From contig JAPPPQ010000021.1 of the NCBI GenBank assembly GCA_028817435.1, forward strand, positions 1 through 64,000: a stretch of DNA of 64,000 nt. The letters run 5' to 3'. The position numbers and the translations under genes were made by a program. This DNA is from Deltaproteobacteria bacterium. GTDB taxonomy: Bacteria > Myxococcota_A > UBA9160 > UBA6930. A model generated the notes under the pieces. That model ran no database searches, was not told the origin of the DNA, and saw nothing but the letters and a program-made list of their open reading frames with translations. This document shows, in pieces, positions 22,480 through 25,271 of this stretch; positions within the stretch are counted from its first letter, which is position 1, and every line of letters begins with the position of its first letter.

Positions 22480-25271
22480 GCGCGGGCAATGCGCGGGAAA
22501 CCATCGAAAAGCTGCGGCGCGAAATCCGGCGCCACGACCACCATTACTATGTGCTGGACGATCCGCAGATTCCCGACGCCGACTACGACCGGTTGTTCCG
22601 GGAACTCCGCCAATTGGAAGAGCAGAATCCCGCGCTGGTCACAGCGGATTCTCCCACCCGCCGGGTGGGCGGAGCGCCCGCCGAGGGCTTTGCCGAGCTT
22701 CGCCACGGCGCGCCCATGTTGTCGCTGAACAACGCCTTCGGCGAAGAAGAGATTGCGGCGTTTGACAAGCGCGTGCGCGAAATGCTGCGCGAAGACGCGG
22801 TCGAGTATGTCGTGGAGCCGAAACTCGACGGCGTGGCGGTAAACATTCTCTACCGGGACGGCTTGCTGCAACGCGCCGCAACCCGGGGCAACGGCGCTGT
22901 GGGAGAAGATGTGACCGCCAACATCCGCACCCTGCACACGGTGCCGCTGCGCCTGCTCGCAAAAAATCCGCCCGCTCTGGTGGAGGTGCGGGGCGAAGTG
23001 ATCATGACTCACGACGGCTTCAACCGGCTCAACGAAGGGCAGCGCAAGGCCAACGAGAAGCCCTATGTAAATCCCCGAAACGCCGCCGCCGGCAGCCTGC
23101 GGCAATTGGATCCGCGCATCACCGCCAAGCGCCCGCTGGAAATCTACTTTTACGGGCTTGGCGACCTGCAGGGAATGGAAAAACCGGCGCGCCACAGCGA
23201 CGCGCTCGAGTTGTTTCGCCAATGGGGGCTGCGCACCAGTCCGCTCACCGGCCGCGCGAGCTCTGCCGCAGAATGCCTGGAGCACTACCACCGCCTGCTC
23301 CGGGAACGCAGCGCGCTGCCATACGAAGCCGACGGCGTGGTTTACAAAGTCGACGACCTCGCGCAGCAGCAGCGGCTCGGCCAGGTTTCCCGCGCGCCGC
23401 GCTGGGCCATCGCCCACAAGTTCCCGGCCCAGGAAAAGAGCACGCTGGTGAAATCCATTGAGGTGCAGGTGGGGCGCACCGGGGTGCTCACCCCCGTGGC
23501 GCGGCTGCAGCCCGTGTTTGTCGGCGGAGTTTCGGTCTCCAATGCCACCCTGCACAACGAGGACCAGATCCGGCGGCTCGATGTGCGGGAGGGCGACCGC
23601 GTCATCGTCCGCCGCGCCGGCGATGTAATTCCCCAGGTGCTGCGGGTGGTTGCGGAAAAGCGGCGCCGCGCGGCGCCCTACCGGTTTCCCGAGCGCTGCC
23701 CCGCCTGCGGCAGCCCGGTGCTGCGCGAATCGCAGGCAGGCGCCGAGCGCGAAGCGCAACAACTGGAAATTGGAGCGGAGGAATCCGGCGGCGCGGCGGC
23801 GGCCAGCCGTTGCAGCGGCGGCCTCGTGTGCCCCGCCCAGGTGGTGGCGCGCCTGCGCCACTTCGCATCGCGCAACGCCTTCGACATCGAGGGGCTGGGC
23901 GTGGAGATGATCGAGGAACTCTGGGAGAACGGCTGGCTCTCCTCTCCCGACACGCTCTTCGAACTGCCGCAGGCAATGGAGCACATTCACGAGATCAAGA
24001 AATTCACCAACGCCTACACCAATCTGCGCAACCGCATCCGCAATCCAAAAGACCCGGCGACGCGGGAGAAAATTGCGGCGAGATTTGCAGATCACGCGGT
24101 GGAGCAGCGCGAGGCCCTCGGCAAACTCGGACTCACAGAGCGCATGACGCGGTTCGTGGTCCTGGATCTGGAGACCACCGGGGCGGGCAAGCAGCACCGC
24201 ATTGCCGAAATTGCCTGCGTGGAATTGAATCTCGAGCGCGCAGACGAACTGGGCGATCCGGCGGCGGCAAACCGCCTCTGCCACTATGTGAATCCGCAGC
24301 GGAAGGTTTCCGAAGCAGCGCTGCACGAGCACCGGCTGACGAATCAATTTCTGGCGCAATTTCCGCACTTTGAGGAAAGCGCCGCGGCAATTCTCGATTT
24401 CATCGGAGACAGCCCGGTGATCGCCGTCAACGCCTCCCGCTGCGCGAATTTTCTGAACGGCGAATTCAACCGCCTGCAGAAGCCGGCGCACCGGCCCTTC
24501 ATTGACTTTATGCAACTGGCGCAGAGCCAGCTCTCCAGCAATGCGGGCGCGCTGGCGGCGCTGAAGCGGCGCTTCGATTCCGCCCCGCGCGGGCGGCGGC
24601 GGCACGGCGCGCTCACCGATGCGCTGGTGCTGGCGCAAATTTGCGTGAGTCTGCTCGGGGGCACCCGGGGCGGCGACATCAAGGCTTCCCGGCTGCAGCA
24701 GGAGAACCTGGCGAAGAATGTGGAGGCGCGCCGGGAAATTCCGCTCGACCGCTTTTTGTTCGCGCTGGGAATCCACCACATCGGCGACACCACGGCCGCG
24801 CTGCTGGCCCGCAGTTACGGAACGCTGGAAAAGCTCCTCGAAAAACTGCAGGAGGCGGCCCGCCAGCGCGGCGGCGCGGCGCACACGGAGCTTTTGGAAA
24901 ACGACGGCATTGGCGAGGCCGTGGCCGAATCCCTGCTGGCCTTCGTAGAGGATCCGGACAACCGGCGGGTAATTGAGAAATTGCGCGCGCGGACCCGCGT
25001 GCTCCCCGCACCGGCGCTGGAAACCGGCGGCGGGCCGCTGGCGGGAAAAACCATCGTGTTCACCGGAAAGATCGAAAGCATGACCCGCGCCGAGGCCAAA
25101 ACCCGCGCCATGCAACTGGGCGCAAAGGTTTCCTCCGCGGTTTCGTCCCGCACAGACCTGGTTGTGGCAGGCGCAGGCGCAGGTCCGAAGAAGCAGGAAA
25201 AGATTCGCGCGCTGGGCATTGAGGTGCTGGACGAGGCGGCCTGGCTCGAAATCGCGCGGCGCGATTCCTGA
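22476..25271 (+). CDS. ligA: NAD-dependent DNA ligase LigA with an inserted DnaQ/epsilon-like exonuclease domain
   Basis: [16 protein letters not shown], zinc-finger cysteines (CPACG...[11 protein letters not shown]), [30 protein letters not shown]; exonuclease-like VLDLETTG...[14 protein letters not shown] between the HhH parts. Confidence 0.95.

Follow-up and report, generated by a model that had tools for sequence, protein, structure and literature searches.

A replication-type NAD+-dependent DNA ligase (LigA) with a DNA polymerase III epsilon-type domain inside its HhH domain is encoded in a deltaproteobacterial metagenome-assembled genome (MAG). The gene lies at positions 22476–25271 (+ strand) of the window, the 64,000-nucleotide stretch of DNA analyzed here, starts with ATG, and runs through zero internal stops. 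Its 931-aa product is a complete LigA that also contains, in the same frame, a DEDDh exonuclease domain, and this inserted domain takes the place of the HhH2 hairpin. The insert most likely lacks exonuclease catalysis, judging from its Exo II motif. We therefore favor, with moderate confidence, a working ligase in which a catalytically dead epsilon fold contacts the DNA or plays a structural part. The finding is a genuinely new LigA domain architecture in one lineage, represented by a single genome; the enzyme itself is already known.

Domain architecture of the fused ligase

The ligase part displays the organization of bacterial LigA (NF005932/TIGR00575), with all of its domains in the expected order and the HhH domain interrupted. 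The Ia and adenylation domains (22476–23432; Pfam DNA_ligase_aden at residues 71–319, E 1.8e-94) precede the OB fold (23442–23669; DNA_ligase_OB, residues 323–398) and a Cys4 zinc finger formed by C408, C411, C446, and C452 (23697–23831). The first HhH (FDIEGLG) and the beginning of the first HhH2 helix follow at 23883–23969 (residues ~470–498). Beyond the insert, the remaining HhH motifs (24750–24974; HHH_2, residues 759–833) and a BRCT domain (25032–25238; residues 853–921) complete the protein, all on the + strand. The earlier note had described a LigA that is intact on either side of the insertion, and the Pfam domain order bears this out, together with a score of 810 bits for the whole protein against the NCBIfam LigA family (cut-off 369).

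Conservation extends to individual residues. The adenylation domain retains the Lys116 (KLDG) active site and every NTase residue checked (K116, D118, G119, E174, R201, R209, R278, D286, K291, and K315, the KxDG motif included), and all catalytic, OB, and Zn-ligand positions examined are kept. This check used the E. coli LigA positions generally regarded as functional. E. coli H23 corresponds to Tyr25 here, a residue also found in several other aligned LigAs. The model of the full-length protein agrees with structures of E. coli LigA and has high confidence over the ligase parts. The insert cannot be relied on in that model, with pLDDT <50 for a large part of it, because the alignment there contains no DnaQ rows; ligase and insert were modeled separately. 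Conservation of this kind points to a working NAD+-dependent nick-sealing ligase. No other NAD ligase turned up in the genome, which is 92% complete. In view of a weak, partial ATP-ligase match on another contig, we rate the ligase as likely, rather than certainly, essential to its host.

The protein departs from bacterial LigA in two places. One is the ~242-aa insert found instead of the HhH2 hairpin, and the other an extension of ~20 aa in the zinc finger, between the second and third Cys (23733–23798, residues ~420–441). Sinorhizobium LigA has a shorter extension in the same place.

Replacement of the HhH2 hairpin

In LigAs from the class, the alignable parts correspond to residues ~5–498 and ~741–926 of the fused protein, with only ~13 residues between, so that residues ~499–740 (window ~23970–24695) are extra. 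The boundaries proposed earlier, 23985–24690, were right to within a few codons. The HhH2 hairpin was also correctly named as the piece replaced, as the relatives' xxLxxLERMGEKSA is absent. The insert opens with a mostly helical linker without recognized relatives (residues ~499–555; 23970–24140), continues with the RNase_T/DEDDh fold (residues 561–722; 24156–24641), and ends in an exit helix that leads into the old second helix of HhH2 (24663–24731), which carries on as in relatives. Codon-position GC is similar in the insert and in the rest of the gene.

No intact HhH2 hairpin (LxxhxGxGxKSA) is present in this LigA, and the other HhH glycines (G475, G770, and G813) are kept. One alternative alignment sets R731 and G733 opposite the R-x-G of the hairpin, so a remnant behind the insert is possible. 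The AlphaFold2 model, with a long helix before the insert (491–521) and another after it (732–751), favors loss of the hairpin over such a remnant.

This site varies in other Proteobacteria. Among the best 80 named LigAs nearest to the fused protein, those of Xanthomonadales, Massilia, and Janthinobacterium carry inserts of 30–81 aa at exactly the HhH2 hairpin and have lost the GxG turn, which indicates a naturally insertion-tolerant site. As the hairpin is variable in the family and replaced in Xanthomonadales too, its absence does not disqualify the present protein as a LigA. Xanthomonadales and Oxalobacteraceae LigAs (e.g., Dyella, locus L105; Lysobacteraceae, L127; Massilia, L119) thus share the insertion point and the hairpin loss, but their inserts are shorter, lack DnaQ similarity, and are accompanied by further HhH-like additions. 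In ten loci from Xanthomonadales, Massilia, and Janthinobacterium, an extra HhH-like piece of 90–99 aa lies downstream of the last HhH. A different HhH-like addition, farther upstream, occurs in the LigAs of Devosia (L140) and locus L075.

An epsilon fold with an altered Exo II motif

The identity of the insert as an in-frame epsilon-type DEDDh domain, as first noted, is confirmed by four lines of comparison. Pfam assigns residues 561–722 to the RNase_T exonucleases (67 bits, E 3.8e-18, cut-off 24). The best NCBIfam family for the isolated insert is Pol III epsilon, at 107 bits and below the equivalog cut-off of 196 bits, the insert not being a stand-alone protein. In sequence, the PDB entries closest to it are chains of E. 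coli epsilon (E 7e-15). Finally, the AlphaFold2 model of the insert, built with DnaQ homologues (mean pLDDT 80), has E. coli epsilon 2gui as its top Foldseek match (E 8e-14, TM 0.85 target-normalized, 29% identity).

The claim that the insert tracks Pol III epsilon closely holds for the fold, Exo I, and Exo III, and fails at Exo II, a motif that the excerpt in the earlier note passes over. Exo I (D564-x-E566; 24165–24173) and Exo III (H710 and D715 in HGALTD; 24603–24620) are retained. Exo II (residues 651–656; 24426–24443) reads VNASRC rather than HNAxFD, with Cys656 for the catalytic Asp (epsilon D103) and Val651 for the His. The DEDDh set of four metal-binding acids and a His is accordingly incomplete. 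Both Exo II residues are kept in all 41 homologues of the DnaQ alignment (11 bacterial and 30 from viral contigs), where HNAxFD is near-universal, and both are present in 12 of 12 alphaproteobacterial DnaQs read by motif. A compensated frameshift masking the Exo II Asp was considered and rejected, since neither of the other two frames yields HNAxFD. Relative to the E. coli epsilon exonuclease domain (PDB 1J53/2GUI), the insert also has a shorter stretch before Exo III, lacks the GQxxLxL clamp-binding-like motif at the C-terminus of epsilon homologues, and sits inside a ligase.

The Exo II Asp presumably corresponds to D424 of Pol I, and we know of no working DEDDh nuclease with Cys at this position. 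In epsilon, D12, E14, D103, and D167 are reported to be essential for coordination of the two metal ions (PMC4408791). The D424A substitution in Pol I is used for abolishing 3′-5′ exonuclease activity (PMC7952088). Replacement of an Asp and a His that are kept throughout the aligned homologues makes DNA hydrolysis by the insert unlikely. The Exo I and Exo III residues that persist could nevertheless mean that some activity is left or that the metal site is an unusual one.

A second Exo II Asp change occurs in the same genome. Its DinG-type protein (L154 1120–3456, contig C50 of genome G000) reads HNAAFE in place of HNAxFD.

Proposed role of the epsilon-type domain

LigA encircles nicked DNA, and its HhH domain holds the two strands across the minor groove (PMC5052709, PMC10504179). 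A domain inserted there must consequently sit close to the DNA path. In the arrangement we favor, the epsilon-type domain sits on a helical stalk in the position of the HhH2 hairpin. Its fold is predicted to be kept and its metal site is partly preserved, but without the Asp and His of Exo II it most likely does not hydrolyze DNA. It may instead stand in for the lost hairpin as an accessory DNA-contacting or structural module, perhaps cradling the 3′ strand by the nick. A DNA-binding role is suggested by analogy with exo-dead polymerase domains and Maelstrom, which bind nucleic acid without cutting it. The Maelstrom MAEL domain (PMC4408791) likewise has a DnaQ/DEDD fold that lost its catalytic residues; it belongs, however, to a eukaryotic RNA-binding protein with no ligase, and binding by the LigA insert is argued from this parallel. 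A preserved fold with a lost active site suggests, from a single sequence, re-use rather than decay. Together with the long branch of the insert in the DnaQ tree (1.72), the kept fold fits relaxed catalytic constraint with the structure retained.

The insert could instead be a tolerated passenger, captured by chance at an insertion-tolerant loop and without a function of its own. The unrelated 30–81 aa inserts at the same site in other Proteobacteria would agree with such an origin, as would the occurrence in a single genome and the long branch. This explanation is plausible but rather doubtful, because the open frame, the intact predicted fold, and two of three exonuclease motifs kept argue against free decay, and the composition of the insert is coding-like.

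A more speculative possibility, to which we assign a low probability, is that the dead epsilon domain acts as a 3′-end reader. It would catch frayed or mismatched 3′ ends at nicks and block or delay sealing until a separate nuclease acts. If true, this would provide ligation fidelity without editing, and a new route to it.

The earlier suggestion that the fusion couples 3′-end editing to nick sealing fares worse. A proofreading ligase that trims mismatched 3′ ends before sealing could draw on the intact Exo I DxE, the Exo III His and Asp, and the intact predicted fold. Such an enzyme is very unlikely in view of Cys and Val at the two Exo II positions that all 41 homologues conserve, and no working DEDDh nuclease is known to have that Cys.

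Genomic context and evolutionary origin

The window lies within a 70-kb contig of a 2.8-Mb bin, and the host genome is the sole member of its genus among the genomes compared. RecA encoded on the same contig is mostly 74–83% identical to its counterparts in class relatives (82% for the best-scoring match, 86% for one partial match). Against proteobacterial RecAs from the plasmid records listed, its identity reaches at most 69.5%. Directly beside ligA, rsmI (25283–26101, − strand) is arranged tail to tail with it, as in ~10 class relatives, and is 59–71% identical to rsmI of the class. Class-like RecA and the conserved placement of rsmI mark the contig as native to its lineage, and simple contamination was rejected on these grounds. 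On the upstream side (20822–22479), ruvX- and mltG-like genes are found, and in the class this place is taken by a histidine-kinase-like gene on the opposite strand; hence, only the rsmI side of the neighborhood is common with the class. Elsewhere in the window (13025–14968, − strand), an IspG/GcpE-like ORF, identified from the start of its sequence only, extends up to 647 aa, compared with ~370 aa for the usual bacterial enzyme.

The ligase core is not native to the class. Its tblastn identity is only 45–50% with class LigAs, and among the proteobacterial LigA matches listed the best segment reaches 57%. Its zinc-finger signature, CSGGLxCPAQ, is proteobacterial-like. In two trees, the core is sister to alphaproteobacterial LigAs (SH-aLRT 99 and 97), and the LigAs of the class fall together in a group of their own (support 100). 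The insert points in a similar direction: DnaQ matches at E 1e-24 occur in 88 of 385 alphaproteobacterial genomes versus 8 of 369 gammaproteobacterial ones. The DnaQ tree pairs the insert with an alphaproteobacterial DnaQ (support 91/93), although its very long branch makes the exact placement unsure, and identity to the nearest DnaQ is ~40%. No comparable DnaQ was detected in class relatives (no other genome among the 91 of the class, E 1e-12), and the only other RNase_T matches in the host genome are the DinG-type protein and an exonuclease of ~204 aa. The ligA gene was probably acquired laterally, maybe already fused. In the simplest history, an alphaproteobacterium-like gene would have replaced the native ligA, with fusion before or soon after that event.

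That contaminating alphaproteobacterial ligA and dnaQ DNA was joined into the contig during assembly or binning would explain why core and insert share an affinity unlike that of the class in a single MAG, but it is highly improbable: the contig spans 70 kb with class-like RecA (82%) and an adjacent class-like rsmI, two divergent coding pieces would have to join in frame twice and exactly at the HhH2 hairpin, and neither is close to any searched genome (57% for the best ligase segment among the matches listed, ~40% for DnaQ).

Occurrence and precedent

The fused LigA is rare, and rarity rather than uniqueness is what we claim. An exact-peptide scan of 84,980 GTDB species genomes, sensitive to close relatives only, returned none. 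No second case was found in 91 class, 379 phylum, 369 gammaproteobacterial, and 385 alphaproteobacterial genomes, nor in plasmids, phages, or viral contigs, and none of the best 80 named LigAs nearest to the fused protein contains a DnaQ insert. In sister genomes, where the earlier note had proposed to look for it, the insertion was found in no other of the 91 class genomes. The note's remark that it knew of no described LigA with an internal proofreading domain agrees with these searches and with the literature searched, from which subscription papers were mostly out of reach and in which we found no LigA with an internal exonuclease. DinG-type fusions (TIGR01407; S. aureus DinG, 8zef/9ii8) similarly join a DnaQ domain to another DNA enzyme, but there the domain lies at the N-terminus of a helicase, whereas here it is internal to a ligase.

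Implications

The architecture described here indicates that the DNA-encircling HhH domain of LigA can take a globular domain of 240 residues at the HhH2 hairpin. It offers a natural protein for testing how far ligation depends on this hairpin and whether a dead proofreading fold can serve as a nick-binding module.
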